64,000 nucleotides of DNA from Nymphaea colorata (taxonomy: Eukaryota; Streptophyta; Magnoliopsida; Nymphaeales; Nymphaeaceae), in the NCBI RefSeq assembly GCF_008831285.2, contig NC_045150.1, forward strand, positions 5,282,001-5,346,000. The letters are read 5' to 3'. Shown here in pieces: positions 9,470 through 58,996 of this stretch. A program made the translations under genes and the position numbers. Each line of letters starts with the position of its first letter. Within the stretch, counting starts at the first letter, position 1. The notes under the pieces are model-generated. The model did no database searches. It was not told the DNA's origin and was given only the letters and a program-made list of their open reading frames with translations.

Positions 9470-9472
<3 letters not shown>

Positions 9473-14137: not shown

Positions 14138-15360
14138 AATTATAATCACAAAAAACGCATTATTTTTAAAAAAAAACGTGAGAAATTCATTTGCTGCAAA
14201 AAGGGAAACATTTGTGTTTTTGTTGAAAAAAAACAAAAAAAATGAAATTTTGATGCGTTCATTTTTTTGGGGTTCGGTGGCATAAACTGTAATATTTGAA
14301 AATTATAATGGATTTAAAGTAAACAAATGTAAAAAGAAAAAAAGGACGATACTTGAATCAACATCAAAGGAAGGAAATGGGTGTTCTAGGGTTTCTAAAA
14401 AGACAAGTTATGCCGTGAGAGTTGGGGAAATGAACTGCTCATTCCAGTGTTATCCGTATCTCATGATACGGGCCCGTATCGTGCGATACGTAGCGCATAG
14501 ATACGTATTGTATAGGTTCGAAAAAACCTATACGATATGCCTATGATACATGATACGCATGTGTATCGTGTGATACGATTGATACGCTCCCGTATGTTGC
14601 AATATGCGGACAAAACGGGAAAAACCTTGTTTTTTGTGCTTCTTTTTAAAATACCTCCTCCCTTCTACTTTCTAAACATCTCTAAGAACTCTGGGAGGGG
14701 GACGTTTTACTAGTTTTCCAAAAAAATCAATCATATGTTGGTGAAGACATTCCATTTGAAGGCATTGAAAATTAAAATTTAAAACAATTAACAAAGAAAA
14801 TGAGAATGAATACGAAGATGATGATTATCATTGATTGATGATAATCATGATATTTGGTACTTGGCAATAACAAATTATATGGTGTGGACTTGTGATATAA
14901 TCTAAAACATTTTAAACTTGTGATTGATGCTTAGTATGTTATTCTTAATTTATGATTCTCGTTTCTGAATGTGTTATTAGTATATTATAGCTTATGAATG
15001 ATGTGTTAAAATATAAATCCTTCACCAGCACGTTGAAGAGGAGTCTCTTAGGATTCCACCTCCTTGTAGAATGTGTTAAGATATTTAATGTCCTTGTAAC
15101 ATGTGAAGAGTCTATTCTATGTTGTAGTTAATATCCTTGTTATATGTGAAGTCTTCTAGGATTCTATGTTGTAGTTAATATCCTTGTAATATGTGAAGTC
15201 TCTTAGGTTTCTATGATGTAATTAATGTCCTTGGAGCTTGTGAAATCTCCTAGGATTCTACGATTGGAGACTGTTAGAATTCTGGAAATGGGATTATAAA
15301 TAGAGGTTGTGCAAACCATTTTGGCTATGGCTTCTTCTCCTCAGTTTCTTCTTGTTTTCA

Positions 15361-15392
<32 letters not shown>

Positions 15393-18300: not shown

Positions 18301-21300
18301 TCACAGTGAAGAAGACAACATGCCCCACCTTAGAAGATCCCAACGCATTCGTCATCCCATTCACAGGTGGGTTAGCTATGATTCTTTATCACTTGATTTT
18401 CAGTTATTCATGGCAAAAGTTGGTAAGGAGGAAGAACCTACTTCATTTGATCAAGCATCAAAATCACATCATTGGAGAAAGGCAGTGAAAGAAGAAATGG
18501 ATGCCTTGCATGAATGTGGAACATGGGAGATCGTTCCGAGGCCACACGAAAAGAACGTAGTGGGCTTCAAATGGGTATACAAAATTAAATACAAACCTGA
18601 CGGCAGCATAGAAAGACACAAAGCAAGGTTAGTAGCAAAAGGGTTTACACAACAATATGGAGAAGAATATGATGAGACAATCAGCCCTGTGATCAAAATG
18701 GGAACAATTCGCGTGATTATATCATTGGCAGTTGAATATGGATGGAGACTACATCAAGTGGACGTGAAGAATGCTTTTCTTCATGGTGATTTAAGGGAGG
18801 AAGTATATATGGAACAACCTCCAGGATACACGAAAGGAGACTCTCATGCATGGGTTTGCAAACTAAGAAAATCTATTTGTGGACTTAAACAGGCCTCACG
18901 TTCGTGGTTTGACAGTTTCTCCTGCAAGATTCAAGAATGTGGTTTTCGGAGATGTCCTCTAGATCACTCTCTTTTCATTTATCGAAAGGAAAACATATTT
19001 ACTTTACTTCTTATATATGTTGATGATATTGTTATCACAGACAATTCAGAAAAACACATAGAAGAAGCTAAAGTTTTGATGATGCAAAACTTCAAAATGA
19101 AAGAGCTTGGTGATTTACGATTCTTTCTTGGAGTGGAGATTGATAGGCACAATAATCGCCTCACATTGACACAACAGAAATACACGTTGGATCTGCTGAA
19201 AAAGTCAGGTATGTCTGATTGTAAGCCTGTTGGAACTCCTAGTGTTCTAAATCAAAGACCAAGTGCTCAGGATGGGGAGTTATATGAAGATCCTATGCAA
19301 TATCGAAGTATTGTTGGGGCACTTCAATATCTTACATTTACTAGACCAGATATTATATATGCTGTGAATCAAGTATCTCAATTTATGCATGCACCTAGAG
19401 ATACTCACATGGATGCTGTCAAAAGAATATTAAGATATCTTAAAGGGACAACAGGAGATGGCTTAGTTTATGGTAAGAGTGAAAATATAACTACTGGACA
19501 TCAACTTATGACATTCACAGATGCAGATTGGGCTGGAGATCCTGATCAAAGAAAGTCCATTTCTGGTTTTTGTATTTTCATTGGACGTAATCTTGTGTCT
19601 TGGAGTTGTCGAAAGCAAAAGGCAGTAGCAAGATCCAGTACTGAAGTTGAATACAGATGCATGGCTGCAGGTACTGCTGAAGTTACATGGGTTAGACATT
19701 TGCTAGAAGACATTGGAGAAAAGATTAAAATGTCAATGTTAATGTGCGATAATCAAAGCGCTATTAACATTGCCTTTAATCCCATACAACATGGTCAAAC
19801 AAAGCACATTGAGATTGATCAACACTTTGTTAGACAAAAAGTGGAAGACAAGGAGATTCAGCCTATTTATGTTCGTACAGATGAACAAGTTGCAAACTTA
19901 TTTACAAAAGGATTAACAAAGGAACGATTCTGGTTTCTAAAAGGCAAGTTGTACATGATGCAGAACTATGCACAACTTGAGGGAGGGTGTTAAAACATAA
20001 ATCCTTCACCTGCACGTTGAAGAGGAGTCTCTTAGGATTCCACCTCCTTGTAGAATGTGTTAAGATATTTAATGTCCTTGTAACATGTGAAGAGTCTCCT
20101 AGGCTTCTATGTTGTAGTTAATATCCTTGTTATATGTGAAGTCTCCTAGGATTCTATGTTGTAGTTAATATCCTTGTAATATGTGAAGTCTCTTAGGTTT
20201 CTATGATGTAATTAATGTCCTTGGAGCTTGTGAAATCTCCTAGGATTCTACGATTGGAGACTCTTAGAATTCTGGAAATGAGATTATAAATAGAGGCCGT
20301 GCAAACCATTTTGGCTACGGCTTCTTCTCCTCAGTTTCTTCTTGTTTTCATTCTCTCTCTCTCTCTCTCTCTCTATCTTCCTGCGTGAGTACTGTTTTCT
20401 GGTTACAGATATTGGTGCTAGATTTCTATCATGATGAATCACGAACATTCTTTATGTGAGATGTGTTTTCTATATGGAATACATTTTTCCTGATTTTTTC
20501 TATTTTTTCTATTTTTTGTATTTTTTTGAATTAAAAAATTAATTTTATGATATGCTACACTACATTTACGATACAGCGTATAGGTCAGCCTGACCGATAC
20601 ACATTACGATACGCCTTTCAACAATGGCTCATTCAGTCCATTGAGGTAGGCAACAAATGTCATTCTTCCTTTTCTTTCTCTTTAGGTCTTACCCAAAGTT
20701 TAAGTCTCTTCTTAGCCATCTCTCTCTTCCTCATCTCTTTTTCTATCTGTTCTCCTTCCATCTCTCTCAATTTCTGTCCCTTCTTTTCCCCGTCTCTCAG
20801 TTGCTACCGTTGCTCTGCTGGGTTTCCAGTTTCCACACAACAGTGATTCTCTTAGGGTCTCTCACTCCTTGTATATGTTCACGTCTTTTTGATGAAGTCG
20901 GCATCTGTAGTTCTTGTCAGGGAAAACTGGGAACTGGTAATACTTATGTCCTCCCTAGATTAAAAACAGTACAAGCGGTTCAAACTTCAAACTGCCCATT
21001 TAGATCCTTCCAACTTTTAGTGTCAAGAATTTGGAAAAAAACGGTGTATTTGTTTATGTTGTGTACACGTGCCTCAGTAATACTTCCCATGTGAAGATGA
21101 AAAATGTCCCATTGTAATCTCTCTCTCTCCCTCTCTTTCTTTTAAATTACAAAAATATGCTAACCCAAAATGCCAAGTTGGCAGCCATCAAGGCATTAAG
21201 GAATCACATGAAGTCAAAGAAAATGATGAGATTCAAGGTTAGTTTCTCATATTTTTCTATGGCGAGGTACTATGATATTTAATATTTTTGTCTGAATTAT

Positions 21301-30549: not shown

Positions 30550-32176
30550 ATGGAGAAGCAACAACTCCCATTGAACACAAGCCAATCAGACCCTTTGATC
30601 TGGTTCAATCGTTTCCACGCCATATCCTACACACTTGCTCTGTTTGCCCTCTTCTACCACAGATCTCTCTCCCTCCTTCGATCCCCAACCCTCTTCTCCT
30701 TCATCTCGTTCCTCATCCTGACCTTTGCAGACCTGGTGCTCTCCCTCTTGTGGATCCTAACCCAGGCCTTCCGCTGGTCGCCGGTCCGGCGCCGCGCCTA
30801 CGCGGAGAACCTCAAGGCCAGGCTCACCGCACCGGACCTCCCGGCTCTCGACGTGTTCATATGCACTGCGGATCCTTACAAGGAGCCTCCAGTCGACGTC
30901 GTGAACACGGCATTGTCCGCCATGGCGTTCGACTACCCGGCGGAGAAGATCTCGGTGTACGTCTCCGACGACGGAGGGTCGAAGCTCACGCTCTTTGCTT
31001 TCATGGAGGCTGCGGGGTTTGCTAGGCACTGGATCCCCTTCTGCAAGGAGAACAGTGTAAAGGAGAGGAACCCACAGGCTTACTTTGCCAATGGTGCCAA
31101 CAGTGGCTTCCCGCACAATGGGTGGAGGGACTTGCAGGTAAGCCCAATATTCCTGTCGTCATTTTTTTCCTTTGCCTGTCGGCGCCACCGAACAGATTCG
31201 TCGCGTCGCGTGTTCGAGGGCCGAACAGGGATTGCCTCTGTTCGGCCCCTCACACGGTACCTTGGGTTATTCTAAAAAGACGGCATTTTGGACATTTTAT
31301 AAAAAGTAACTTTTCTCTCTTTCCTTTTTTTCCCTATAAAGAGAGTTCCCTTTACAAAGAAGGGCCTTTCGGTCATTTTGGCTGAGTTGACTGATCTTTA
31401 AAAGGATAAGTGTATATATTTATAAAGGGTCGTTTAATTCATCATGACCAAAATGCTAGATATTTTTGTTATCTAACATTAATTCACATATTTTTATTAT
31501 TTTTTTTTGTCTCAACCTTTCACAATCACTATAAACTAGATGACATTCATTCCAAAAGTTGAATTGAGACCAGGCGCCTCCTTAAATGCATGGGCCCATC
31601 CAAATTATCGTTGAATGATTCTAAGAGTTGGATTGAGATCAGGCGCCGCCTTAAATGCATGTGACCCCTCCAAATTTTCGTGTGTCAAAGCGGGACAATG
31701 GCTATCCAGGTTTCCAAAATCTATATATTTAAAAAAAGATCATAGATGCTATGATCTTATTTGGGCTCTATTATTTAGAAAGGATTTGTCTGCAACCAAA
31801 ATGAAAAATAAAAATCTATTTTCCCTCACCTTACTCCTCCCCCTTACTTTTCCCTTTTCTCTCGATATCTAATAGATACAAAGAATTTTGAGGGAGTAGG
31901 AGAAAAAAAGAGAAAAAGAAATGGAACAAGATACGTGTGTATATATATATATATAAGTCAAATTCTTTGTATGAAAAATATTGATTTTTCTATTAGTAAA
32001 ATGTTGATATAGTTCAACACTTTTCATTAAAACAAATTGAATCAAAGGATGTTTTATATCAAAATAATCTTTATAAACATATTAAGATGTTTATATTTTA
32101 TTTTAAACAGTTTTTTAACAAAAAATTAATGGGTTTGGTTTTTATCTCTAACTTAAGTGTTTGGTTTTTACCATTC

Positions 32177-32261
<85 letters not shown>

Positions 32262-32929
32262 GTAAGTCAGGGATGAAAACCAAAACTTTGATTTTTAATT
32301 TTTTTTTTATGCAATCTAACCTTATAGAAAATATATATCAAGATGATCATTTGTTAGACTTTAATGGTGTTTTTATAATAAGAAAAAATGAACAATGCTC
32401 CTGACATGACAATAAAAAATTCAACAGTTTTCATTAAAACAATTTGAATTAAAGCATATTTTATATCAAAATAGTATTTATAAACATATTAAGATGTTTA
32501 TATTTTATTTAAAATAGTTATATATATATATATATATAGATATATATATATATATATATATAATCACCTGAAATCTTTAGACAGTGGCAGTGGGTTGCGT
32601 ATGCGAGAGGGAGTACATTTCTGACAGGAGAAATCTTACAAATGCTCCGAGCTGGCAGTGGGTTGTATATATATACATTCCGTTACTAAGAATCAGACTC
32701 TCTTGCTTTCACAGAATCAATGGTTTAATTTCTTTATATCTGCATGTAAATTCAGCAGTCATTCAGTTAATGATGCCTCAAGGCATGAAGGTAATTGACG
32801 AATATATACATGTTATTGAAGGTAGTCACTGTTTAATGTTGAGCGACAATTAAGATTGCTAACTCAAAGATGGGGTTGTCTTAATTTATTGATGGTTCCA
32901 TTAGATGTACTTATTTTGTAAATTATAAC

Positions 32930-33263: not shown

Positions 33264-33361
<98 letters not shown>

Positions 33362-36300
33362 TGTTTGATAGAAACGTGACACTTATGTCATGGATAAAAC
33401 CAGACCCTTTTATTTTGACTTTTAAAATGCTTTTTTTTGCAATCTAACCTTATTGATTGATATGATCCTGATGCAAAACATATACTAAATTCATCATTTG
33501 TTAGATTTTAATGGTGTTTTTATAATAAGAAAAAATGGGTGGCTCTCATGACATGATAATAAACAAATCAATATTTTTCGTTAAAATAACTTGAATCAAA
33601 GCATCTTTTATATCAAAATAGTTTTTATAAACACATTAAGATCCATTTTATTTAAAATAGTTTTTTATAAAAGATCATTGGGTCTCGTTTTTATCTCTGA
33701 CATAAATGTTAGGTCACAGATAAAAACCAGACCCAATGATCTTTTATTAAGTTAGGGACAAAAAAATTGATCCTTTAGCTTTTTGCTAAAAACCTATTTT
33801 AAATAATATATAAACATTCTAATATATTTATAAAAACGAATTTGATATAAAACATGCCTTGGTTCAAGTTGTTTTTATGAAAAATATGGATTTTTTTATT
33901 ATCAAAATGTTAATGTTATGAGAGCCATTCATTTTGCTTATTGTAAAAATATTATTAAAGTCTAAAAAATGATCAATTTAATATTTGTTGTTCATTAACC
34001 TTATGCCCATGATCTGTTCGTATAATTTCTTGGAGAAAAGGGTAGAGTGCTCCAAATGCACATCCTCTCACTTAGTAAAACTTCATTTTTTCGTAAAGAG
34101 ACGTTATTTTGCTCATCAACATACAACTTTTAGTAGAAAACAAATTTTTAGATCATGGTACGTATCCCAAAATCATGAAAAAAAACCACAATATGCCAAT
34201 TTGTAAAGCTTGAAAAATTACGATTTCGTGCCCTAGAACACATTTACTGATAATCTCTATCAACTAGATCTCGTACTCTGAGCAGATAAGATATACTTGC
34301 ATTAACACAGCTTGTAGAATGGGAAAAAGAACCCTCACGCACTTGCACAATCGTTCTACGTCCTATCTCCACGAGGTTTAGACACTTAGTTAAAAGAAGG
34401 TCCGGACCATAAAAATAGAAAGCAATCGATCAACTAGAACCCCATATTTCAGCTAAGCTTGCAATTTGCTATGAACATTATTTATATTTTGCGTTTGTTG
34501 AATGACAATCTCAAATAAAACAATGGGTTCTGCGATGGGAGGTCTCCCAAGCCTTTATATCATTGCATTCAATGCGTTCTATTATAAGCTTGCAATAAAA
34601 AATACACAAAAGATGAGGTTCCAATTACTTTTCATAAAGAGAAGAACCATTTGGAAGGAGCGCCAAAGCCCCTCTCTTTTCTCCTTTTGCTGAAGACCCA
34701 CTAAAATACCATGCGAGATGAGACCTACTATAAGTAGGGCTCCGTGGATGGGATTTTATATAAAAATAACCCGTCTGATTCAACCAGAAGACAAAAGGAT
34801 GGGCTATCAATAAGTGTCGGCATGGGGCAGGCAAATAAATATATATATTTTATTTTAATTAATCATATTTGTATGTTATATTGTATTTTTTTTATATACT
34901 ATATTATATTTTTATATGTATTTTATTATAATAAGACAGGGTCAGACTGAGCTCGGGTTGCGAGTCGCTGGGTCAAGCTATGGCACGGCCCCATGCCCAA
35001 ATCCTAGGCCCATGTAGTCAGTCCATGCCCAATCTTAAGGCCCAGGGGAAGGGGCAAGCCGGTCAGAGGATGGTCCCACCATTTTCTAGAGATGGTTCCA
35101 TTATCATGATCAACGCCTGTCAAAATTTTCTACGCCTATGGATTTTTGCCAATATATATGGCCTTTTACTTTATCATTATTGATGCCATGAGACGGGCCC
35201 CAGAATTATTTTAGGCTTTGGTATGAGAATTCAAGCTTTAGTCATTTTGAAGAGACATCCCACTATACTATTAGGGCAAATTGAACAATTCAGCTCATTT
35301 TTTATTTTAAAACTGCTTACAATTAATTTTTATTAAAAATCAAATGTCAGAAAATTAGAAAGATTCATCTAGGCTGCCTCCGCTCCCTCACTTTATTAAT
35401 GGACAGGATAGATGATAAATCGTTTAAATATTTTTTGAGCTGCCATTTACAAAGACTTCATAACAGGTTTTGTTCTGCTTTTGGTTTTCCTTTTGACAAA
35501 GTGATATGAATCAGAACCTGGCAAAATTGACGCAAACAATACGCTGGAGTTTAACTTCATTTTAACTTGAAACTCTTATATTTATGAGCATCGGTGCTGT
35601 CGGTATTAGTTTTGAGTGTGGTATGTGTTTTCCAAAGGATGGTGTATCTCTCGGCCGATATGCATGGGCGTGTATCGGTCTACCTTTCTACTTTTATTTT
35701 ACAATAATAATAAACAATTTTTTAAAATATTTTACAAAACAAAAATTTTCAAGCCCGAGTGATCCAACGTCCTTCCAGTTTACTGTTCATACTATGTTCC
35801 TCGGCCGACACAGCATATGCTAATTATGTTTGACAGAGAAGGTAAAAAATAGTACACAAAACTTCTGATTTACAAGCCTTCCAGGCCAACCAGCTATGCT
35901 ACCGCTTGAGGCTAATGTCTTCTAATTTTTCAAAAGGATCATGAATACTTGTTTAATCTCTCAAAAATGTTATATAACTATTCTAAGCTACCACTGCTCT
36001 CATATTTTGCCTCTTTAAGGACCTAGTGTTACACCAATGTTCGTTCGGGTGGATGATCACTGAGCCCTCCTGAGAATTCTGTTGATCAGGTATTGGTGGC
36101 AGCAGACAAGGATACGGACGGTATGGGGAATGCCATGCCAAACATTATATACATGTCCAGAGAAAAGAGCACGGCTTGTCATCACCATTTCAAGGCTGGA
36201 GCCCTCAATTCTTTGGTAAGTTGGCTATGATGGATAATAATGATGATTTATGATTGCCACGGTAGGAATGGTGAACATTGATGATTATTGTTGCATATTG

Positions 36301-43380: not shown

Positions 43381-44653
43381 TATGGATGTCATGCTCTAGG
43401 GTGTCTTTGAATCGTTATGTTGGGTGTCATTTGACAAAAGTAACACATTATTGTTGTCCCATGAATCTACCCAAGAAATAGAGCAGAAACACTTGTTATA
43501 GTATTTATTTTTTTTAGGCCACTTCATAGGATGGTAATAGAGTGTTACTATTGCCAAATAGCCCCTTATGTATCACATTAGTCATCAACTCAATCTCATG
43601 TGGAGGTGGTGAGGTAAGTAAATCATGCACTACCTTAACATTTGTGTAATCACATGGGGGACAAATATTAGCTAAAAACACACAACGTTCTTCTCCACCA
43701 TCTCTTGAATCTTCAAGGCTTACACCGCCTTTCCTTCACAATAAGCCTTGCCCATGTAGTACTTTATCTTAAGTAGATTGGGCAAGAAAAAACTGCTTTT
43801 TAGTAAAGATCAAAATTCAACAGAGAAATCGAGACAAATCCAAGGAGAATTGGATGAAAGAGCGCAGGATGAAAAAGATAATTCCTCTGCTTCAGTCGTT
43901 GCCTGGATATGTCTTTTGGACGAACGGTATATGGAGTTTCACATCAATTTGCAGTCTTTTCCTTTGTTGAATACCTGCTAAAAGTTGATGCAACGCTTTG
44001 ATATGAAAGTAATTGATGCCACAGTTGATCCCATAATTTTCCCGACGAATTAAACGCACCATTGAACACTTTCGATCGGTTTGAAGACAAAATAAAAGGA
44101 TGGTTTGTTAAGATGACAATACAGTTGGTTTTCCTCCAACAAGTGGAAAAAATGACGACAAAAATCTTGCTCATGGGCTTCTCTCTTTCAATCTTGAGTT
44201 TGAAAATTGGCTAACACATTAAAAGAGGCAATGGATTCTTACAGCCTTGAACAGGATCTATTCTTTGGTTGGACAACACTAACCTTTCACACTGTTCCAG
44301 AACCCAGGCATTTCCATTTTATCATATCAGGCTTACTTTAGGATAAAAAACTCAAACCAAGTTGCTTGAATTTTATTGTTGACACCTGAGACTTCAGTTT
44401 CTATGGATCTTACGACGCTTCTTACTTGGATCTATCCACTCACAAGCCAGTCCCAGAAGAGACGTCACCCTTGTCATAACCTGGGCCGTTTTAAGTGTTA
44501 ACTTTGATATCATTGATGAACTTACAGTCTGTCTCGCATATATACACACAACATGGATACTTCAGAACTATTTTGCACTTAACCTCTGAAACATGGTTCA
44601 TCAACCAACCCTTCCATCTTCAATGTGGATATGAGCCATTCCTATTTGTAGCC
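43381..44653. other. Downstream flank of the bZIP gene; no gene
   Basis: The part next to 44654 should be the bZIP 3' UTR on the minus strand. The small open frames elsewhere show no recognisable domain. Confidence 0.45.
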
Positions 44654-45842
44654 TTAATTGTTGCCAGATCCTCCGGTGAAATCCACGGATTTCTGCTGAG
44701 ATTGATCTGCAAGAGGCTCTCCGCTTGACATTGGTGGACACAAATGGGGATGCTGAACATGGGCTCGACCTAGATGATGCAGTTGCAGATTCTGACGGAA
44801 GAATGGCGCATTCGCCTGTGGCATGCCCCTGCTGAAACTGTTTCCATTCATAGGTGGTACTTGTCCAGTTGCAATCTTTAGTCGTTGGACTTCTTCCCTC
44901 AATGCTTCGTTCAGGGCTGTTAAACAGTAGCATATGTTGAGCAACAGCAAGGACATAATGAGATCAAAGCAAATCTAACTTGCATTATGTGATGGCCCTT
45001 TCTGGAAGAAAATCAAGTGATATATATATATACAGTTCCTCATGTCCTGACTTAAAACTGCTTAAGGTCAATTAGGTGTTCGAAAGTTTTCCATGGAAAC
45101 AAGAAAGCGCTTACGATCAAGATATTCATCTTGTTGAAAGGGTCTTCTGAGTGACATTTTAGTTTTGTAAACTCGTACCTCATGTTTTGAAAATCATGAG
45201 ATGCAAATCTAACTTGCATTATTTTCTTACTGTTGTGCAACTAAAGGCATGGTGTAAGTAATGACATCAAGGGAAGCAGCATTTGCATGCTCATGCATTT
45301 TAAAAAATAAAAAAATAAAAATAGAAGGGGAGAGGTACTGTGATAGCATTGAGCATGGAAGTAGACATGTCTAGCAATACAGGTATACTCTATTGTACCC
45401 AAAAAAAAAAGAAACTGAAAATACATAGTGGATAGCAAAAATGGTAACCTCTACAGCAACCGTTCACTTTTCTCAGATGGAACCTACCTTTTCTAAAGAG
45501 GAAAAGTGAGTGGAAGCTATTAGAATATATAAACCATATGATGCATACTGACCACTATGCTAGCTAGTAGCTACTCAATTTTCCTTCAGAAAAGGGTGAA
45601 ATAGACCTTTAAGGCCGAGAACATCATTCAGTTACACACATATATATAGAATATTTGGACTGAGTATATTTGAGCACTTGATTAAGTATAAATAATAATT
45701 TTCTAGTTAACTTAACTCAAGGTGCCTAGGAGAAATGGTATCCATCCATCATATGCCTACTACTCAACCATAAAGCGTCTTCAGCATCTTCGATGAAAAG
45801 GAAAAGTCATATTACACAACATTTTAGTGGATAATAGCAGAT

Positions 45843-45878
<36 letters not shown>

Positions 45879-48800
45879 GTATTGAGAGAGACAAGACATG
45901 CATGTGGCAAGGAACTAATCATTTGAGTCACCACCTCAGGAAAATTTGGTGCTTTGGGTAATAAGATCACACAAATCTTGTTAGATTTTCCTACAAAACA
46001 CATTTCTATCTAAAAACTGTCCTTCCATTTCTTTCCTAACACTTCAAGCAGTGAGTGAAGATCAGCCAGTATATTGAAATTGCTGCCATATCTATTCTTT
46101 CAGTGCAACTTCAGGAATTCATCTGATTCCTGTACACTGTTCCTTTCCTAAAGCATGATGAACACTGAATTTGAATGTGAACTGGTCAAAACAAACAGAA
46201 GGCTATATTAAGAAAAGCACATGATAAACAATAAGCTCAGCCAACTGGTCATACAGGACCCCATGTATGTAAGGCTTGAGAATAATGCTATATTGAAGAT
46301 CTAAAAAAAGATTTTTGGTTTATATAATCGTCTCCCTGCTACCTGCTGTTTTGGCTCATAACTTTTTAGGTGTGAGTCGAAGCCAGTAGCAAGGTGGGGT
46401 GAGGTCCATCTCACCAAGCACTCCAGTTAAAGTTTGCTTCACATCACTAAAATTGGTAGCCAAACCAAGTTAAACACACGGATCAGAATCTCATACACAT
46501 GGATGTGTTTGCCTTAAGGAAGATGCATTGTAACACCCCATGTGTGTAAAGGATGAGAATAGTCTGGTTCAAGGTTTTATATATTCATGTGCCCCAGTGA
46601 TATTTAAAGAAACTAACAGACTGATCAATAAATGACAAACAGGTACAAGTTCTGACATCACCACAGCCCACCACTTTGTCACTTACACAGCTATCAGTTG
46701 TCTAGGTTTCATGGCCTTTCTAGGTGCACAGCTATCAGTTGTCTAGGTTTCATGGCCTTTCTAGGTGCGAACAAAGCTGGCTACAAGGTCAATTGGTATC
46801 GCTGTACCAGGAAGACCAATCACTTAGATCATGTTGTTGGAATTGTCATGGATCTTGCATATCATCATGCAGCCAGTAAACCTTACACAAACACTTCTTC
46901 ATACTATACATGTCCATCCCAAATTTAAGGACAAAATCCACACAAAGACATTCGCCCTATGTGATGACTGATGAGTCAACCTCTGAATGGAGATATCAAT
47001 GACTATGAAGGTAGCAAATTAAAAATATTTAAATTGAAAATTTCCTGATGTGATGCATTTCCAACTAATACAATATTTCAGGCCAGCCACAATCACATAT
47101 GAACCTCATTCATTCATATTTTATCTCTCGTCTCCATCAGAAATCAGTCTATGTTTTGCATTGTATACAATGTCCGGATCAAGAAACCAATCTCATCCAT
47201 TCATTATCATAAGTGATGATAGTTATTCATCAACCAAATATCCGTATAATTCTAATTGTTCTGATGGTAGCACCAGATCTACTGGATTAGCAGCTCGTGA
47301 ACTTTTGCATTACAAGAAAATGTCTTCTCGTTCTATATGGGAACATGTTCAATAGACGGATCATCATTACAGCATTATAAAGTCAACAAGTCGGGCTACT
47401 GTGCCTCGTATCTTCCAGATGCATCGTGGAAGTCACAAGCATCGTTAATGGGTTCCAAGTGGTAAGGTTTTCCTCGGGTATTTCTCGCAAAGCTGAAAAT
47501 CTCAGGAAAAAATTTGGCACTTTTTTAGAAAATAAAATAATCATAAAAAATTAGGAAAAAGTAAAATAAATGACAAACTAACAAGAAACATAAAAAAACA
47601 ACTTGATAAATTTATAAAAATGATGTTTTAGTAATAAAAGAAATGAAGATAAATAATTTAACTTAAGTTCTAACTTTTAAAAAAAATAACATAAAAATAA
47701 TGAAAAAAAACACAATAAAAATGTGAAAAAAATCACTTTGGAGCTTTTTCAAAAAAGGGGAAAGAGATTGATTTTTACCGTTTTCATTGTCTTTTAACAT
47801 TTCTCTCAAGTTTTTTGGAAAAAAAGAAAAAAAAACACTTTCTGCAACTATGGTTGAAACACACTGAGTTACCTATCCCTTGTTTCATAGGTTAAGGCTG
47901 CACCTAATAAATATATATTAGACTTTGCCAAGATTGAGAAATTGAACAGTGATCATTATGACATACGGAACTGGAAAACTCCATTCGCACTGCAAGAGGA
48001 TCAAGCTTGATCTCCATCATGTTGCAAGCAAACCTAAGAATAATAACACTATGCAATGTCATAAGAACAAAGAGATCTATGAAGGCTGGAAGCGCATTAA
48101 TAGTGTGGCAAGAGTTATTAGGCTATGTGCAATGCAGGACAACTTCATGTGTCAGTTTGAGCAGTATGGCACAATTCACTAGATATGGTTGATATTGAAA
48201 GACAAGTATAGGGGTACATCAGCAACCAAATTTATAAAATTCACTATAAGTTTTTATTCATATTCACAATCCTCCTCAGCACACTAGGAGATTGCACCTT
48301 AAGGAGATGGCAAACATGATCAGAAAGTTGAACTTGTTCAGAGATCATTTAACAACTAAAGAGCAGGTCAAACCAGTGACACATCACTGCCAAATAGTTG
48401 GAAACATGTGAAAATGAACATGAAAACAATGAGAATATCAAGACATTTGATCATGTTGCATGTCATCTACAATTGGAGTAAAAGCACCTGGAGGCTGCTA
48501 AAATGAGTAATTGAGCATTTGGTGCTAAAAACCCCAAGAAGCATCCCAACTTCAAGAAAAAAGAGGAAATAGACCAGAGCAGTTCACTAAAAATCCATTT
48601 AACATAACTCAAATGAGGGATCGAAGGTAGTGAAGAAACAGAAATTCAAACCCAATCAACACCGAGGAAAGCATGATGGCAAGGAAGCTAACATTGTGAT
48701 GAAATGTTTTAAATGTAGTAAGATGGCCCATTTTGCTCATGAATGTGTTGACAGAAAGCAAGTATTTGCTACCAAACATTTATATTATCATGCACATATT

Positions 48801-51800
48801 TCCAGTTTTTTTTTATGCCAGTTGAATATCATATCTTATAGATTATTGACTCACAAGCAACAAACCACGCAAACAAGTACCACAGCTTGTATGTTGAATA
48901 CCGGCAAATCTCAGTAGGATAGGAGTAGTTATTCCTAGGGATTAACAGCAAAGCTGAAGTCAAAGGAATCGAAACCTGCAAATTAGATTTGCAAGGAGGG
49001 CAGACATGATTTCTGCATGATCTATTCCATTTTCATTCGATTTTCCAGATATTTGAAAGAGCCTCACTCTGTTTCTGCTCTTTTGTTATAGCAACCACCT
49101 GCTAACTACCACCAGTTACAAGAAAATGCTCACCCACACGCACTGCCATAACCCAATTAGAGTGACACTCACCACAGGAAAATCCCCATTACATAGATAT
49201 CCCTAATTTCACCCCCAATTCCCTTATTTATAGCCATTTTCTGGGTCAATCCAGTACACCCGATCCCGACCCAATTCTAGAACCGAAACCTGTACACTAA
49301 CATTACTCCCCCCTTCCCTTCAAATGTGATGAACAAAATCAAATGTTGACAGACAAGAGTCCTCCCATGACTGCAGCCAACTAGGGCAGTAGCAAACAGT
49401 AAAAACATGGCTCAACAATGGCCATGATAGTGAAAGGATACATTTGAAAATCAGCTTCTCCAGCTCAAAAACTTCCTCCAAGTTGGCATGAGACAGTACT
49501 CCCAATAATGGCAAACCAGCTGCGTGGCTACTGGACCCTCATTTCTAGCTTCCTTGTTCTATGTTAGAATGGCTGCAGTTGAGTTCTGCATTTAGGGTTA
49601 ATGCAAAACATGCCTGCCCTAGAAGATGCTTTGATACGGGTGGCCAAGGAACTTCTCCCATGTCCAGTCCGGTGGGATGATTTGAGCACATCTTGCACCG
49701 GCTTAGGTCAGTCCAATCTTGTAACATTTTCCTTATTTTGGCCATGGCTGGCTGGTATAAAGAACATTTCCCCCTAATCATAAGAGATGAGCAAGTGGCA
49801 AACAAGCCTGTTTTTATCTTCAGCATATCATGATAGAACACAGCATTCTACATCTGAGCTTCAATAATTGGCAATATGACCTATGGATGAAGACGACCAC
49901 ATAATTCAGCTGTAATTTTACGAACATCTTCAAACTCCAATAAATGAAAGGCCCTATTTACTAGGAAGGGGCTATGCAATCTTCATCATCATTCTCATCA
50001 CATTTTCTAGATGTCTCCAATTTACCATGCACGCTGGAGGAGTTCAGATCATTTAGAACTCGCAGAGGAAGTAACCTAATAAGGAGAAGTGGACATAGCC
50101 GATCGAACAGCATATCCTTCAACTCAATGGAATCATTTTCTGTGCAACATCCAGCCTTCCATTTGCAAAGCAGGAATTCATTAAATATCTTTTTTACTAC
50201 ACATATCCAATAAAATGCGGTGAAAAACTACATTCCCAAGACCTGCCATTTCCTCGCTAATGTAACTCAAAAGTGGAGAAGAACTGCATTTGATCGATCA
50301 CCAAACATTTTGTCCATCAAAGGCTCAATCAGACTGTTTCGGTCCGAACACTTGCAGACCACTTAGGTGTCAATCGAAGAACCAAATCAATGTCCTCTCT
50401 TAAACATGACCATAAATAGAACATCTGAGGTTATAGTTTCTGCTGCTTGCGCTGAAACTTTTGAGGCATTTGAACTGTGACTAAAATCTCTAACGCAGTC
50501 AAGAAGTACAGATACTGCATTAAGTTTGTCTTTCCAACATTTCAGTAATGTAACCACAGCATCACTAGCAAAAACTGGACTCACTTATCATGACAATAGA
50601 TGTATTTCAGCAAAGCAGGCAGAATAAAAGTAGGATCAAGCTGCGAGAGCAGTTTGGCTGCCGATACGCATTTTACAAGCTCTTCATCACCAAGGGTTCC
50701 AACAAGTGTTTTCCTATGTCACGCCTTAACGAAGAAGGCAGTTCATTTCCTGAATCTGAACATAAAGCCATGAGCTCAGAAAGAACATCTATAGCATTTC
50801 TCCTTTGGATGTGATTTTTTGAGTCAAGCCGCCCAAAAAGTTCTTGAAGACCTTGATCTGGATATAAGAAGCAATATTATGCAGTGAATGAGACAACAGC
50901 TCTTGCAAGAACATCTCGTCCATCCAAAAATTGAGCAACAATGGTAATGCTGTTTCCATTTGACCAAAATTAGGAGGCTTACTTTCAAATGCAGGAGAAC
51001 ATCTTCTAAAAATAATAGTCTTGCAAGAACATCTCGTCGCCTTTCTTATTCTCTAATCACTGCCAGATACTCCTCACTCTCCCTGGCGTCCCTAAACTGC
51101 AACAGTGGAGGCTTCCCTGGTTGCTCCAATGGTTCTCTATCGTAGTGTACTCTCGATCAAGTGCAGAGGGAAACCACTCAAGATGCCTTTGGCCACCACC
51201 GGCTCCCGACCGGAATCACTCCAATTCTTGTGCTATTTGTAATTAGCCTAGCTGATGCAACATGCCCAAGTCCGTGGAACCCGCCATGCCTGTGTTGGGT
51301 TTTCAACCTGATTTTTAGTGCATTTTTTGAGGGGCATTTGGCGCCATTTTGGGACTATGAGCGTCTTCCTCTTGAAGATGCAGAAATCTCTACCAGATCT
51401 CTTCCTTGGTTACATGGCAGATGACTGCTCTCTTAGATTGGAATGGGAGTGGAAAGACATTAACCCTTTCGTCCGCCTCTCTTAAGAACTCACCTCCAGC
51501 TTCAACAAACTGGTCGTTGTCGGTGACTGGGTGCTCAACGACACGACCGATCGTCCTCTATGGTAGGACTCAACGTGGGAGAACAACATCTTCAACCTCT
51601 TAAACTGTACAACATTTTCTTGCAGTGTCGCCCGTGAGTAGGGTATTTGACCCAACACTTGGAGCATCTTCTTCAGATTTGCAATCTGAAGTTTCTGAAT
51701 CGGTACTCAATCGTGCGTGAAATTCCTTGTCTGAAAGAGCAACCTCGGTTAGTTTCTTGCCTAGAAACTTTTCCAGCATCAGACTCATCTGCCTGTATTC

Positions 51801-54800
51801 GGCCATCATAGTCTCCCACAAGTCATTTATGCCATCTCGTTTTTGGTCAATCCTTGCAACGGAAGTCTCCATCTTCTCCGAATGACACTCTCCAGAGTTT
51901 GCCGACTGCATCCTCAGACATTGGCGCTCTGATACCTTGTTAGCAACCACCCGCTAACTTCCACCAGCTACAAGATAATATGCACCCACATGCACTGCCC
52001 TAACCCAGTTTGAGCGACCTCACCAGAGAAAAATCCTTATTACATCGATATCCCTAATTGTGCCCCAATTCCCTTATTTATAGCCATTTTCTGGGTCAGT
52101 CCAGTAGACCTGATTCCAGAACCGAAACCTGGACACTAACATTTTGACTTTGGATTATGAATTCTTGCTTGGAAACTCTTGTATGGATATTTACCTTGAC
52201 ACTGCACTTATATGTTCTGAACTTGTCTCTGCAACCAATTTTATGGAGTTATTTTTCAAACCTGATATGGTAAATTGTGGTCCTAAGGAATTCCCAGGGA
52301 TATTGAAATCTAATCTCTACTTTCATTCATGTCCAAGTTTTTATTCACCTTCCCTTAATTCATCTTCTTCCTTTCTCCCTTTGTTCATATTTCTTTCATC
52401 CTTCCTATCGTCACAATTTTCTAAATCCATTTTCTTACCAATCTGTTTCTAAATCTTTCCTTCAATAGCAGAAAAATGTGGTTCCCCAGTCGACAATAGG
52501 AGAAAGCCCTTATTTTTCTGTGTTTGAGTTTTCCCTTTAAAACGTGGGCTGTGGTTTCTCCTTTATTCCATCCTTCAGTCTGTTCTTGTTTTTGTTTCTT
52601 AATTCTGATCCAATATCTATTTTCCGTGCTTATCTTCTGGTCAATATCTGTCTTCCAAACGTTCATACTCTTCTTGATGTCTTGCCCTAATTCTGAAATT
52701 CGAAAATCTGAAATCCCTAATTCTAAATCCCTGATTCAGAAATCTGGCCTGCCTGTCCTTGCCTCCTGAAATTGGCCTTCTTTTGAGCACTGAAGTACAC
52801 TGTGACCAGAAGTGCTGAAGATCACAGCACTGAAATATACATTGTCATGAGGATTGACCTTCTCAGCACTGAAAATCAATCTTTGATCAATTCAGTCTAC
52901 TAGTATGTGTTGACTGGGGTAAGCAACATATTCAAACTGTCCTGATGCCAAAAAGAAAGAGAAGAAAAGATAGAGAAAGAGATAGAGAGAGATGTGTCCA
53001 AGTTTGGTGGGTGGTGACTTAAAAATTACTTATAGCTGTGCTGATTTCCAGGCATGTTTCTAAGCATAGTGACTGAAAAATTGCTTCCACCTACGCCAAG
53101 TATTCCAGATCACATTTCTTCCTTGTCATCCATATCTTAATTTTCATCTTATTTTGTCTTTGTTTGCCTGCTCATGGATTACTCCCCATCTCAATCTAAA
53201 CTTTCTAATTTGAGTCATCTTGTCTCTAAAAAGTTGAATCGGTTCTGATTTTCTTAAACTGAAAGAGATAAATTCTTCCTTTTATCAAGAGACAGGATAT
53301 ATTTGATATGCCAGCTTGAGTGCCACACTGCATCTGTGGCAGTCTCACAAGAAAAAAGAAGAGAAAAGAAGAGGCAGAGAGATGAGGAAGAAAGAGGAGG
53401 AGGAAGAGGAAGAAGGAAGGAGGAAGGGTGGCCTGGATGCAGCTGAAGAGGTAGAGCTGGGATAATGATGGTTACGATTTCCCATGCAGGAGGCAAAGAA
53501 CGGTGAAGGGGCAGTCAGCTAATTTTCTTCACAATCCTGAGTTTGTCTCATTGATAAAAAGTGATCACTGATCAGGTCTTGGTGGCCCACATTACCTCCA
53601 CTTTTTGCCAAGAGGTAGTGGTGTCTATTCTAGATGGCTGTTTTGCAAAGGAACTTTGGAACAAATTGGTCCAAAGCTACCCTCAAGTTTCAGAAGCCCA
53701 AATGTTATAACACAGGTGAATTCCAACTTCTGAAGAAAGGATCTAGGACAGTGTCGAAGTATTTGAACGAAATAAAGGGTATTACAAATCAATTGGCAAT
53801 TGTTGGGAGCGATGTCTCAAATAAAAAGAAGGTACAACAGAGATTAACTGGTTTAGGGCCAGAGTTCCACGCTGTTGTGACCACATTGCCATATCTTCCA
53901 ATTCTTCCTACCTTTGAGGAGTTACATATTATCGTATGAGATAAGCCTGAGGAACCTCAAAGATGACATACTGTCCAGTCAAATTATCATAACATTCTTG
54001 CTCTAGGGGTTGTTTGTGAATGTGGATGTGAACTGTGAAGGCACCGGCTTTCATAGAGAAGAGGTAAGTGGGAGATATGGATAGGGAGGACGTGGTTTGC
54101 TCTCTACTCCAAATATACCTCGCAGTTCGAATGCAGGCAATCGAAGGTATGTTCCTGCTTCTTTTTTGTAAAAGTGGATTATTGGTTCAATCCGAAAAAT
54201 AAAGGAAAGACTATGTCACATAGGTACGGGTGCAGACAAAATTCAAAATCACGGGCACACGGGTACGGCTGGCTGTACATATAATATATACATATATATA
54301 TATATAGACACACACACACACAATATGCAAAAATACATTCATTAAGATTACAATCCAATACAATGCACATAATTATATCGTAATGTATTGAATATATAAA
54401 TTCTATGTTGTATATTGAACATATAATTACAGATACAGCAATACACGGGTGTGCCTGTGCATCTGAAGTGTCGGAGGCATGTCCATATCCACACACGTGT
54501 CCAAGCAAATTGACTCCAACACTTCAGGTGCACAGGCACACACGTGTATCAGAGAGGAAAGATAACCTCAACTTGAATCAATAAGGCAATCCAATGGGAG
54601 AAAACTGAATGTTAATTCACACCAGTTGTTATACATTATCTTCTACATCTGAACATCAAGCAAAATTACTTGGGTGTCCGTGTCTGGTATGTGAATCCTA
54701 TGCATTGTCATAAATATTGTTCTTGATTCATTGGGTTTTCAATGGCAAAATTTTTCACGGGTGTTTTTGCCAGTTTTTTGGCAAAGTTATTTTTCCTGGG

Positions 54801-57800
54801 AAAACATTGGGAAATTGTGGAAATTTGTTTAAAAAAAGAAAAAATCACAAAATTAGATAAAGTAAAATAAATGAGAAACTAAAAAGAAGACATAAAAAAA
54901 TAACTAGATAAGATGATAACAATAAAGTTTAATGATGATAAATAATTTAGGTTAAGTTTAAAGCTTAATCCATGATGGTATTAATGTCAGAAAGATAAAA
55001 ATGAAAAAAAAGGGGAAAATGCGATAAAAATGTGTTACTTAATTTTCACCTTACTTAAAAAAATGTTTTTTTTTTCACTTTTCTCATGTGTTCCTTTTTA
55101 AGGCTATATATTGTGTATTTTTCAAAAACATGTGATATCTAGAATGGTTCTATGACAGTGACTCATGTTGTAGGAGATGTCGATAAGTTATGAAACTCCA
55201 AAGTTACACGGGTGCAGGGTGCAAGGTGCAGGTGCAGCAATAAATAAATATATGTGTACGTGTGAAGAAGTTAAAAGTAAAGAAAATTTCTCTTACAATA
55301 AGCCTATTACTGTAAAAACAGAGGCTCTGAAAAGCATTATGGTAAGAAATGAAAGGTAAGATGGTAAGAAATTTTAAAAGAAATGGGTCCCTTTCTCGAA
55401 ATGTTAATAATGAGGAAAATTAAAACAAAACAAAAAAAAGCTTATGAAAACCCTAATACCATTTCCTTTTATCATTCTTCTCTCTTGCCGATAGTCCACC
55501 TCTCCTCTCCTCCTCCTTCTCCTCTTCCTCTTCAGTTTTCATCCTTCTTTTCCCTCCTCCTCCTTCTTCCTCCTCCCTCCTCCTTTCTGCTCCTTCCTTT
55601 CTCCTTGTTCCTCGTTTTTCCCTTTTTTTGAGTAAAGGCACAACCCAGCAGAACCTGCATCACGTCGACACACGTGTGGCAGTGGCACCCAAAGTGCCTC
55701 ATCCTTGTGTTGTAGTCAAACTCTATTTCTTGTTTTAGAGAAAGCAATATTTTGACTAGAGATATCCACTCCTAAGACCTTATATAAAGTTAGTGGCACT
55801 ATAACACTCATTTGATAAGGATAAAACCAAAATCATCTTGATTCAAAACCATGTTAATTATTTCATGCAAGCACAACACTTTCAGCCTCAATTGTAAGGG
55901 GAACTAGACATATAGGTGCTCAGTAAACCATTATGATCTGCAAAAATTTTACTCCAAAGCATGAAAGGGACATAACAATGGTATACAAATTACCATCACG
56001 AAGATGTGCTTGTTGCTCCATAGCTTGCAAACGTAGTTTGAGTTCCTTGTTCTCAACTGTCAGCCCATTAGTATCCCTCTGTTTTAGAAGAGAATATGCA
56101 TTACTGGGCTTGCTCAAGTCGTAAGAAGAGTATAGGGTCATACTAGAACTGGAGAATAAAACTTCATACTATGTCATGTGAATCATGCAAGTTAATAAAC
56201 ATAGATAACTGAACAAAATATTCTACATTTCACAACTGTAATGAGTTTTTGCTAGTAGAACAACTTATAGTGATCTACTAATTCAGTTGCATGGTCCAGC
56301 ATGTGTGTTTTAACCTAAAGATGACTAAACAAGCAGAAAATCAAACAAGATTAAATCATTGTCAAATCTGATTCTTTTTTGCAAATTCCAAAGCATTTCC
56401 ATCTATGCAAGGGGAAAAGGGATACTAGAAACCAAAATGTCAAGGAAACAACATATCTTAGCAGCCCAAAACATAACAAGTTGATGCTCTAAGTGAAAGG
56501 AAATACCACTAGAAGCTTTGCAACATAATCTGGTGTGCTAAAAAATGTGCCTAGTCCCCAAGCTTTGACTGGTTGGTTAAGTTCCTTGTTCCCAAACATT
56601 GAAATTGGCTAACCCGTGACCTAGGCACTCAACAACCTAGCCTTTTTTTCTTCAACAACCTACCCTTTTTTTCTTCAACAACCTAGATTTTCTTCTTCTT
56701 CTTCTTCTTCTTCTTCTTCTTCTTCTTCTTCTTCTTTTGTTATCTGAGGCAATTGATTTATCTTTTCAACAAAAGGTAGCTTTCCCGCTTTTTCTTCTTG
56801 AGTAATTGTATCATTCCTCTGGTGTAAATTTTTCTCCTTTTTCATACTTTTTATTTTTCTGTTTTACATCAACAATTCATGAGTTTGACCAAGCCAGCCA
56901 TTAGCTAACTCTCAATGGCAAGAATTCTCACCATCGAAGCTAGCCCAATAACTAGCTTGGCCTTTCATCTTGTATAAATAAAAGAGATGTCCTCCCTTGT
57001 TAATTATGCTTTTCAAGCAAATATCATCTATTATTTCTTTTATATGCCTTATTGCAATTGCATGAGCATTTGGCGCATAGGTTCATCTGAACCATTGAGA
57101 TTGCATGTTTCCACCTTAGTGATCATTATTGTTGGTCTATTTTCATGGTATCCAAATTGAGGCTTATATTGTACTTAAAGTATTCATTTTTGCCTCATTT
57201 TAAGAGCCATTTGGAGAAAAAGATCCATCTTGGTGCTATTGAAGATTCAAAGGGCATGAAATCATTCACCATGACTGATTACTAATAAAATCTCCCCAAC
57301 AATGCAAACTTTGAAAATGTGCAATTTCCTGATTAGATTATTAATCAAATCTCTATTGGTTATGATTTCCAGCAGAATTTATTTGTAAAAAGGTTTCTCG
57401 TCCCAATAAATTTATTCTTAAAAGCAGAACTCTAAAACGTGAATGTCCAATTTCCTGACCAAAAGAAGCATCACTCCCAACCGCATCACCAAAACAAGAC
57501 ATTATCCAATGGAAAAACATCCAATAATTTCAAATTACAATCACAAATTATTGATAATTTGCAGGTCAGTAGCACCAATGACATATGCTCTCCCACAAGA
57601 GTTTTCGGGGACAAGCATAAACCAACAAAAGCAATATCAAGCTAGCACTCTACTACCTGAAGCAGCGTAAGCTGCGCTGACAATGTAGTTGCCTCTGTCT
57701 GAAGTGTCTGTACCTTCCTTTCTAGCTCACTTGTATAACGTATCTTTCGCTCCTTTGACCGTGCGGCAGATTGCCGGTTGGCAAGAATTCTACATTAGAG

Positions 57801-58975
57801 ACACCCAAGAAAACTCAGATAAAGGAAAAATATAAAACAAGACAAACCATACGACAATCTCAGAAGACATCTATATCAAAAACAACAGTCACAACCAGTA
57901 TTCTTCAAACCAACACCACATATCTCAAACTTTATCAGGGAAGCACTCTTCCCTGCAACAACTATATAAGCTACCTGAATAAGGAAATTACAGAAAAAAA
58001 AGATACCAATGCTTATAACAATGAAAAGCAACTTGAACGCTAGAAAAAGTAGCGTCAAATACCACAATAAACGCTGCAAGCATTCAATGATTATGTACAG
58101 AATTTTTAATAAATTTATAAAATTATGAAAGCAAAAACCGATAACATGTAGTCATCGGGATGGGATCGACGATAACAATGACAGAAAACAAATGTTATTC
58201 AAAGAAAACTTCGTCCTAAGTATGTATATGGAAGACAAACAATGAATCGAGATCTGAGGTACTCCAGTGCAGCAACAAACCCTTAAATCCGCAAGCAATC
58301 AGAAGTTAAAGATAGAGTGCGTCCAGCCAAAAGAAAAGACATGATAAATAGCAGAAAGCGGCTACAAGAAAAGAAAAAGCGAAAGCCACGCCTTTTAGCC
58401 CTCCTTGGATCGATTAGAGAGAGCTCGGCGAGCTTATCCGCAGGCATCGCCTTCTTCACGTCCGCCACCGACTCCACCGCAACCGGAAACGATGAAGGCC
58501 CTGGAAACCCATCGACCGATCCGGCCCTCCGGTGCTGCGGTCTCCACCCAGCTTCCGGCATCGGCGCTGTCGGGGCCCCGTTCTCCGCTGCTCCTGCCTT
58601 GAACCCCAGGCCGTCCAGGAATGCCGCGTCCATAGACAAACTTCTCAAGTGTGTGGCACCTCCTCCTCCACCAGATCCAACCTCCTCCTTGACTACGCTC
58701 GTGGGCTCCGGGGACTTCTCGGTGTCCATGAGCGCCAGAAACTGCAACCCGTCTCCGGAATTGTTGTCCTCAGAGAGCGATGGGACGTCAAGGAACGGTA
58801 ATTCAGCGTCAACGTCGAATAGGAAATCGTCCGGCAGTCGGAAGGCGATTTCCGAGTGGGCTCGGCGGTGCGAGCCCCGTCGTGGGTTGTCCGCCATCTG
58901 ATCGAGGGTTTCCCTGCCGGAATTTCCGCCAGATAAGGAACCTCCGGCGCCCCCGCCGGAGAACTGGGTCTCCAT
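44654..58975 (-). CDS. Group I bZIP transcription factor (VIP1/RF2a/PosF21-like), 4 exons
   Basis: CDS exons on the minus strand: 58975-58392, 57789-57657, 56078-55994, 44916-44654; 354 aa with agreeing phases. The basic region [15 protein letters not shown] carries N-x7-K (N199, K207) in place of N-x7-R, a group I hallmark, and continues into a long leucine zipper ([20 protein letters not shown] onward). Three HxRxxS motifs at S41, S114 and S153 match the 14-3-3 docking sites known for VIP1, which suggests stress-controlled nuclear entry. The RRAHSE...LPDDFLFD block is typical of the family. The first intron begins AG|GCGT: only a GC donor at 58391-58390 keeps the frame, since a stop lies just upstream of the fixed acceptor. 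Intron 3 is 11.1 kb and full of transposon DNA. A 14-codon upstream ORF precedes the start. Confidence 0.93.
45851..45892. repeat. CA/TA microsatellite in bZIP intron 3
   Basis: A CA run passes into a short TA run and a GA stretch. Confidence 0.85.
46687..46768. repeat. Perfect 41-bp tandem duplication
   Basis: The unit starting ACAGCTATCAGTTGTCTAGG occurs at 46687 and again at 46728; the two copies match until the last base or two. Confidence 0.9.
47460..47860 (+). repeat. AT-rich dispersed repeat, copy 1
   Basis: An A-rich stretch contains AAAGTAAAATAAATGA.AAACT, ACATAAAAAA.AACT and AGATAAATAATTTA blocks. The same blocks recur in the same order at 54730-55080. Confidence 0.6.
47920..48910 (+). 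pseudogene. copia gag relic with zinc knuckle
   Basis: The relic starts near an [12 protein letters not shown]-type block and continues through [20 protein letters not shown] and QFEQYGTIH. After several stops it ends in an intact-looking CCHC zinc knuckle ([14 protein letters not shown], about 48706-48747). This is a different copia lineage from the element in PBC. No pol sequence follows. Confidence 0.75.
49084..49302 (-). repeat. 3' LTR of the compact retroelement
   Basis: It matches the 51938-52141 copy along its length, including a GGCTATAAATAAGG box on the minus strand. Confidence 0.85.
49306..49321 (-). other. Polypurine tract of the compact retroelement
   Basis: The minus strand reads GAAGGGAAGGGGGGAG directly before the 3' LTR. 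Confidence 0.8.
49545..51000 (-). pseudogene. Captured alpha-solenoid (ARM/HEAT-like) gene segment, intronless
   Basis: Translated on the minus strand, with a few frame breaks and stops, it gives a continuous helical-repeat-like protein. Blocks in order are [20 protein letters not shown] with [35 protein letters not shown] with [52 protein letters not shown] with RVLNDLN, and [20 protein letters not shown] with AMAKIRKML. No intron-like gaps separate the blocks, as expected of a reverse-transcribed mRNA. I do not recognise the parent gene by name. The domain class is inferred from the repeated amphipathic-helix pattern and leucine spacing. It is broken and not expected to make a functional protein. 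Confidence 0.65.
51600..51950 (-). other. Leader-region ORF of the compact retroelement
   Basis: A minus-strand open frame crosses the primer-binding site and runs 116 codons, including [20 protein letters not shown] and [12 protein letters not shown], a coiled-coil-like stretch. Retroelement leaders often encode such an N-terminal Gag segment, but I see no diagnostic Gag motif. It could be a Gag remnant or a second captured piece. Confidence 0.4.
51938..52141 (-). repeat. 5' LTR of the compact retroelement
   Basis: A 204-bp LTR with perfect TGTTAG..CTAACA ends. A TATAAATA box (minus strand, within 52075-52082) suggests its own promoter. Confidence 0.85.
53347..53432 (+). repeat. Polypurine tract in bZIP intron 3
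   Basis: About 85 bases are almost all A and G on the + strand, with GAA and GGA repeats. Confidence 0.85.
53577..54170 (+). pseudogene. copia gag relic related to the element in PBC
   Basis: Blocks [58 protein letters not shown] and [20 protein letters not shown] match the gag of the 15-20 kb copia element position by position. A YWFNPKNK-like remnant of its post-zinc-knuckle region follows. At least one frame shift (near 53710) and several stops are present, and no LTRs adjoin. Confidence 0.75.
54443..54547. repeat. Long inverted repeat (34-nt arms, 37-nt loop)
   Basis: Arm 54443-54476 and the reverse complement of 54514-54547 agree at all but a few positions (for example GTGTGCCTGTGCA.CTGAAG). 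The RNA would form a stable hairpin. Confidence 0.85.
54730..55080 (+). repeat. AT-rich dispersed repeat, copy 2
   Basis: It shares block order with 47460-47860 and follows a similar CGGGT.TTTCTCGC-type lead-in. Confidence 0.6.
55497..55628 (+). repeat. Polypyrimidine tract in bZIP intron 3
   Basis: About 130 bases consist almost wholly of C and T in CCT and CTT units. It ends about 370 bases from exon 3. Confidence 0.85.
56690..56736. repeat. (TTC)n trinucleotide repeat in bZIP intron 2
   Basis: About 15 perfect units; read as (GAA)n on the transcribed bZIP strand. Confidence 0.95.
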
Positions 58976-58996
58976 AACGGTCGGAGAAATTCGAGA

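Follow-up and report, generated by a model that had tools for sequence, protein, structure and literature searches.

Gene capture by long terminal repeat (LTR) retrotransposons is already well known. The maize element Bs1 is small, carries a segment of a plasma-membrane H+-ATPase gene and, to our knowledge, has no pol. As an LTR element, Bs1 has acquired parts of three host genes on separate occasions, none of them full-length (PMC13317346), and it holds exons only (PMC4717578). Soybean GmaRetroS15 and other terminal-repeat retrotransposons in miniature (TRIMs) have short LTRs, duplications of 4-6 bp, and exon-only fragments of up to three host genes per element; they measure less than 1 kb, or 1,172-1,449 bp in the forms that carry genes (PMC4717578). 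Maize contains 425 intact LTR elements with gene fragments (PMC2774510), and fragments of 672 rice and 1,343 sorghum genes occur in LTR retrotransposons (PMC3726574). In the maize survey, under its own conditions, each element held fragments of one nuclear gene at most (PMC2774510). The element described here comes from Nymphaea colorata and lies in a window of 64,000 nucleotides (NC_045150.1, positions 5,282,001 to 5,346,000, forward strand; window positions are counted from the first base). It is a dead, non-autonomous LTR retrotransposon at 49086-52141 and holds 12 exon pieces of a host gene from a different chromosome (contig C6) without the introns. Reverse transcription of its RNA very probably took in a spliced host mRNA by template switching.

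The window element is Bs1-like in its working and is not a TRIM by size. Its family shares with Bs1 the uptake of several host genes as partial, exon-only segments inside an LTR element, and here the intron-bearing donor of the sequence between the LTRs is present in the same genome. The exon-only insert and the multi-gene uptake in relatives bear out the preliminary description, made from the sequence alone, which had seen a resemblance to gene transduction by Bs1. The differences lie in the host and the donors, in the 12 exon pieces from one donor, and in the sublineages with different genes. Transduction of the Bs1 type also includes a hybrid frame that undergoes transcription and translation; in the window copy the frame is broken. 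The short LTRs, the small duplication within the 4-6 bp range, the captured exons, and the absence by eye of retrotransposon proteins are TRIM-like, whereas a length of 3,056 bp is well above the TRIM limit of about 1 kb. In contrast to the maize survey, copies of the L027 type bear two host genes, as soybean TRIMs and Bs1 bear several. No report of this family or its donors was met in literature searches naming Nymphaea, whose coverage leaves out most subscription papers.

The captured host sequence and its donor

The window element has its sense on the minus strand and spans 49081-52146 including the target-site duplication. In element order its parts are as follows.

52142-52146, no strand: target-site duplication TTTTG, right copy
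51938-52141, minus strand: 5' LTR in element sense, 204 bp, TGTTAG...CTAACA, with a TATA motif at 52075-52083
51926-51937, minus strand: primer-binding site AGGTATCAGAGC, one mismatch to TGGTATCAGAGC
51039-51925, minus strand: 5' interior, partly common to other family loci, with an open frame of 117 residues
49725-51038, minus strand: captured cDNA of the C6 host gene, 12 exon pieces lacking 11 introns
51019-51038, minus strand: patch at the 5' junction, with 20 bp in full agreement with donor 23371011-23371030
49725-49734, minus strand: 3' junction, where donor exon and family 3' interior share the 10-bp microhomology AAGGAAAATG
49322-49724, minus strand: family 3' interior, also in loci L035, L036, L037, L039, and L040, and partly in L038
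49303-49321, minus strand: polypurine tract GAAGGGAAGGGGGGAGTAA
49086-49302, minus strand: 3' LTR in element sense, 217 bp, degraded outer end, with a TATA motif at 49225-49233
49081-49085, no strand: target-site duplication TTTTG, left copy

The captured part gave no usable match when nine short window frames were compared with Pfam, so the donor was located by a search of the same genome as the window (408 Mb, 783 contigs) with the query 49545-50900. The search scored the best candidates only, and its match counts are lower bounds. At least 26 matches were obtained, comprising 12 exon pieces on C6, 11 rows from eight other copies, two from the 3' interior, and the window itself. The 12 pieces are colinear on C6:23371031-23403694 with 88-96% identity. 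Comparison with the donor stretch by blastn extends the match to 51028-49725 plus the 20-bp patch at 51038-51019, again in 12 pieces, with 89.8-96.2% identity. The donor span C6:23370903-23403694 measures 32,792 bp, of which 1,310 bp are exonic and 31,482 bp are intron sequence gone from the element.

For 11 of 11 donor introns, GT..AG borders are available that reproduce the junctions of the copy. The joined donor exons keep a single frame open over 13 exons, and the donor thus appears to be a working gene. Donor exon 8 has two tandem acceptors, and the element copies fit the outer one. A 6-bp "insertion" common to the copies was rejected as an artefact of a donor cDNA built with the inner acceptor.

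The preliminary description had read protein-like blocks in the element's sense without intron gaps, and had proposed the capture of a spliced host mRNA; the donor now supports both. The protein-like part exists, with limits that differ slightly from the 49545-51000 first given to it, as the captured segment runs from 49725 to 51038 and 49545-49724 belongs to the family 3' interior. The earlier label of an ARM/HEAT-like protein is weakly supported, because the donor matches Pfam HEAT_2 with E 3.6e-4 and 21.2 bits, below the curated cut-off of 27.7. The search of PDB gave weak matches only, at E 0.14 and above, mostly to XRCC4 constructs. The donor protein presumably resembles Arabidopsis AT3G57570.

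The two LTRs are identical at 183 of 206 ungapped columns (89%) with 17 gap columns, and their Kimura two-parameter (K2P) distance is 0.122. The TGTTAG..CTAACA ends noted earlier are present in the 5' LTR, whereas the degraded outer end of the 3' LTR has TTATAG on the plus strand in place of the expected TGTTAG. The TATA motif TATTTATAG (plus strand) occurs in both LTRs, at 49225 and 52075, so that the TATA box of the preliminary description could be located along with its primer-binding site and polypurine tract. The primer site TGGTATCAGAGC is taken to be of the initiator-tRNA type. The TTTTG duplication stands against a rate of 0.002 at which pentamers match across neighbouring offsets. The preliminary description had itself raised three doubts: that the segment might match no host protein, that it might keep donor introns, or that the LTRs might come from unrelated insertions. 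None of these holds, as a host donor gene exists on C6, its 11 introns are absent at GT..AG borders, and the LTRs share one target-site duplication together with the primer site and polypurine tract of the family. The lack of pol genes also stands, as judged by eye from all three frames in the sense direction, with Pfam run on some interior frames only. The 117-residue frame of the 5' interior has no Pfam match. The relatives that share the 3' interior (L035, L036, L037, L039, and L040) are without the captured C6 gene.

Junctions and possible routes of capture

At the 3' junction, the donor exon reaches AAGGAAAATG, after which the element reads TTACAAG... of the family 3' interior. L039, which is without the C6 gene, has CCAAGGAAATGCTACAAG at the matching position. 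The donor frame stays open for ten more codons past the capture point, which argues that the exon continues there and that the capture ends within it. At the 5' junction, GACGAGATGTTCTTGCAAGA (donor 23371011-23371030) comes first in the element and is followed by donor sequence starting at 23370912, within an exon. The 20-bp patch is read as a small repeat from a strand jump. The capture junctions of the window copy have no poly(A), and the 5' and 3' junction sequences show no duplication at the insert borders. Strand jumping in reverse transcription leaves such junctions, whereas a retrocopy made by a long interspersed nuclear element (LINE) leaves poly(A) and a duplication.

The exact loss of GT..AG introns, the apparent ends within exons, and the 3' microhomology fit template switching onto a packaged, spliced mRNA. 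The C6 donor would have been transcribed and spliced, and its mRNA packaged in a retrotransposon particle. Minus-strand synthesis would have moved from the 3' LTR across the polypurine tract into the 3' interior, and at the microhomology visible in the 3' junction it may have jumped to the host mRNA. The 12 exons would then have been copied toward the 5' end of the mRNA, with one jump within an exon that may account for the 20-bp repeat, followed by a probable return to the element RNA at the observed 5' junction. The chimera integrated in the intron of a bZIP gene, where the 5-bp duplication is present, and the copy has decayed neutrally. Related copies spread, with proteins assumed to be supplied in trans by an autonomous element.

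Several points weigh against this route. Packaging and template switching are steps that we infer from sequence. No autonomous helper was found, though none of the searches was of a kind to exclude one. In the 5' interior at 51039-51925 no colinear series of donor exons was seen, and no origin for it was found. A donor GT directly follows the 3' capture point (AAAATG/GTGGAG), so that a splice end is possible there. The 5' junction with its donor repeat is complex and may reflect more than one event or a later recombination. Lastly, no otherwise identical copy without the insert was found among the loci examined, because these loci are mosaic.

The C6 gene also occurs at eight or more other loci, L027 to L034; its aligned part is short in L032 (355 bp), L033 (286 bp), and L034 (148 bp). 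An unrooted tree of seven sequences joins L028 to the window copy (support 84) and unites L027, L029, L030, and L031 (support 100). These four copies share a 39-bp deletion and lack 126 cDNA bases from 23370948 to 23371152, between GGAA/GTAAGC and CCAG/ATCAAGG, a gap that looks like a cryptic splice. Among eight relatives with paired LTRs, the primer site TGGTATCAGAGC beside the 5' LTR is intact in three (L035, L036, and L040), differs by one base in L030 and L037, by two in L032, and by three in L039, and was not seen in L031. Target-site duplications read by eye from the flanks are CATAT in L036 and GCTTTC in L032. In L034, a 70-bp stretch (3400-3469) has an unexplained match of 84% to C6:23410855-23410924, beyond the last captured donor exon.

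The division of these copies leaves some room for two independent captures from different mRNA isoforms, one giving the window type (window and L028) and one giving L027, L029, L030, and L031, although this is rather doubtful. The window copy keeps exon B (23370948-23371065), which is missing from the four others through the cryptic-splice-like gap; the 3' junction lies at 23403694 in the window type and at 23403684 in the four others; and the donor is placed between both groups on the tree. Against this, at 29 of 1123 sites the window copy agrees on one non-donor base with all those of the four copies that are present there; 12 of these sites are synonymous and 17 not. The 17 non-synonymous sites exceed what a constrained donor would be expected to supply, with P 0.001, 0.03, and 0.23 when 70%, 60%, and 50% of changes are taken as synonymous. 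The 3' ends are also just 10 bp apart across a 33-kb gene. These mostly non-synonymous shared sites and neighbouring 3' ends favour a single founding capture of the C6 gene as the more probable origin of both groups.

Read-through transduction, the model for retroviral oncogene capture, is improbable. It supposes that transcription from an element in or beside the donor ran on into the gene, and that the transcript, after host splicing, recombined with the RNA of a second element. The common sense of exons and element and the exact splicing are equally expected from it, the gap in L027, L029, L030, and L031 indicates that element-borne RNA may be spliced, and a donor GT lies immediately after the 3' capture point. 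However, the 5' end of the capture in the window copy lies within an exon, and the match in L027 and L031 starts without a preceding donor AG. The family LTRs also have no good match in C6:23362001-23415500 on either strand, where the one match covers 26 bases with E 0.008. An insertion into the LTR element of a LINE-made processed pseudogene of the donor would give an intronless copy within a retroelement, but it is most unlikely, since the copy is only an inner coding part that does not include the mRNA 3' end, its junctions have neither poly(A) nor a duplication of their own, and inserts of the same style from two other genes occur in the same family.

After the capture by template switching that is preferred here, the window copy became a neutral relic. 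It differs from the donor at 93 of 1308 sites (7.1%), of which 22 are synonymous and 71 non-synonymous, and the ratio of non-synonymous to synonymous rates (dN/dS) is 0.95. In the donor's frame it has four nonsense codons and eight indels, among them a one-base loss when fitted to the outer exon 8 acceptor. Selection on its captured frame was rejected on the basis of the dN/dS value. Over 16 compared pairs, dN/dS ranges from 0.33 (L032 and L033, a short comparison) to 1.24 (window and L027). The LTR distance corresponds to about 6% per lineage since insertion, which is close to the 7.1% distance from the donor and suggests that insertion came soon after capture. A substitution rate of 1.3e-8 per site per year is known from grasses; at this rate, uncalibrated for the present plant, the insertion is about 4.7 million years old.

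Other captured genes in the family

The search for related copies suggested in the preliminary description reveals a multi-copy family that, as its sequences are read here, has taken in at least three host genes in spliced, partial form, with two in one sublineage. The C6 segment of L027, L030, L031, and L034 passes at GGCCAAAAT into a second host sequence. A query taken from L027 finds six colinear exon pieces of it at C12:22758570-22771607, among 34 matches listed. In one sublineage the C12 pieces occupy the place of the family 3' interior in the window copy. L027 holds both the C6 and the C12 gene, a serial uptake by one lineage, whereas the window copy holds the C6 gene only. Neither Pfam nor PDB yielded a usable match to the C12 gene, which presumably resembles a TARBP1/SpoU methyltransferase. 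Positions 371-564 of the same query also have unexplained matches of 77-81% at six loci (C1:32489440, 32545899, 32623227, 33523970, and 13121721, and C18:2015).

A segment of an insulin-degrading enzyme gene is found in L035 and L036, which share the LTR and 3' interior of the window element, and in L040, which shares the 3' interior. The 347-residue open frame of L035 matches Pfam Peptidase_M16_M (E 6.9e-78), and the piece in L036 matches the insulin-degrading enzyme in PDB (E 7e-14). With L036 as query, 11 colinear exon pieces are found over 44 kb at C6:14195816-14240138, among 62 matches listed. Precise splice borders were worked out for the first donor only, and splicing of the C12 and insulin-degrading enzyme sequences is read from colinear, abutting matches. 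Neither L030 in its 5' interior nor L039 in its interior showed a colinear series of donor exons.

In L029 (C6:17725066-17726316, minus strand), an open frame of 416 codons joins pieces of the C6 and C12 genes. The captured part has dN/dS of 0.84-0.96 in four pairs, and in a simulation of random change, 120 changes left the frame open in 1% of trials and 60 changes in 10%. The frame was rejected as proof of function, as dN/dS is near 0.9 and the simulation is weak with many copies inspected. L029 also contains, at about 770-3646 in the sense direction, gag-like and protease-like frames seen by eye and a reverse-transcriptase frame (RVT_1, E 9.5e-33), which join the captured-gene element near 3782. 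The family LTR was not found on that side, and the whole is possibly a chimera or a nested remnant.

An amplified relative, represented by L038 and nine or more similar loci on C5, C7, and C10, has the shared 3' interior and an acidic open frame, which we take to look like the chloroplast import receptor TOC159. This frame is possibly a fourth captured gene; a diverged match of 75% lies at C10:24278922-24279560. A tentative view of the whole, held with some reserve, is that of a capture-prone family. Strand jumping would exchange one spliced host mRNA for another between constant ends, formed by the LTRs, primer site, and polypurine tract. This would give sublineages with different genes (the C6 HEAT-like gene, C6 with C12, the insulin-degrading enzyme, and perhaps the TOC159-like gene) and long chimeric frames, one of which, with 416 codons, is open.

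Genomic setting and significance

The window element lies inside an intron of about 11 kb (about 44925-55995), on the same strand as its host gene.

44604-58996, minus strand: host bZIP gene, with approximate exons, placed by eye, at 58286-58996, 57658-57793, 55997-56082, and 44604-44921

The identity of the gene is given by Pfam bZIP_1 on the second exon (E 1.9e-8). The element is flanked by a zinc-knuckle frame at 48603-48917 (a weak zf-CCHC match under the cut-off) and by a stretch at about 53600-54000 that is gag-like by eye; these frames are probably the debris of an older retroelement. Elsewhere in the window, a copia-like element at 15003-20433 has LTRs with 93% identity and long gag-pol-like frames, as judged by eye. 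A set of repeats related to one another, both direct and inverted, lies at 9024-9527, 32013-32526, and 33282-34001; they measure about 100-580 bp and have 68-91% identity.

For gene capture by LTR elements elsewhere, similarity is often the sole evidence. In the present genome, the intron-bearing donor, the spliced copy, readable junctions, nine or more loci with one gene, and sublineages with two more occur together. It is therefore possible to read directly in what order events took place, where strands jumped, which splice form was captured, and what became of the fused frames. The family offers a natural series in which to test the entry of host messages into retroelement particles and whether chimeras of this kind turn into genes.

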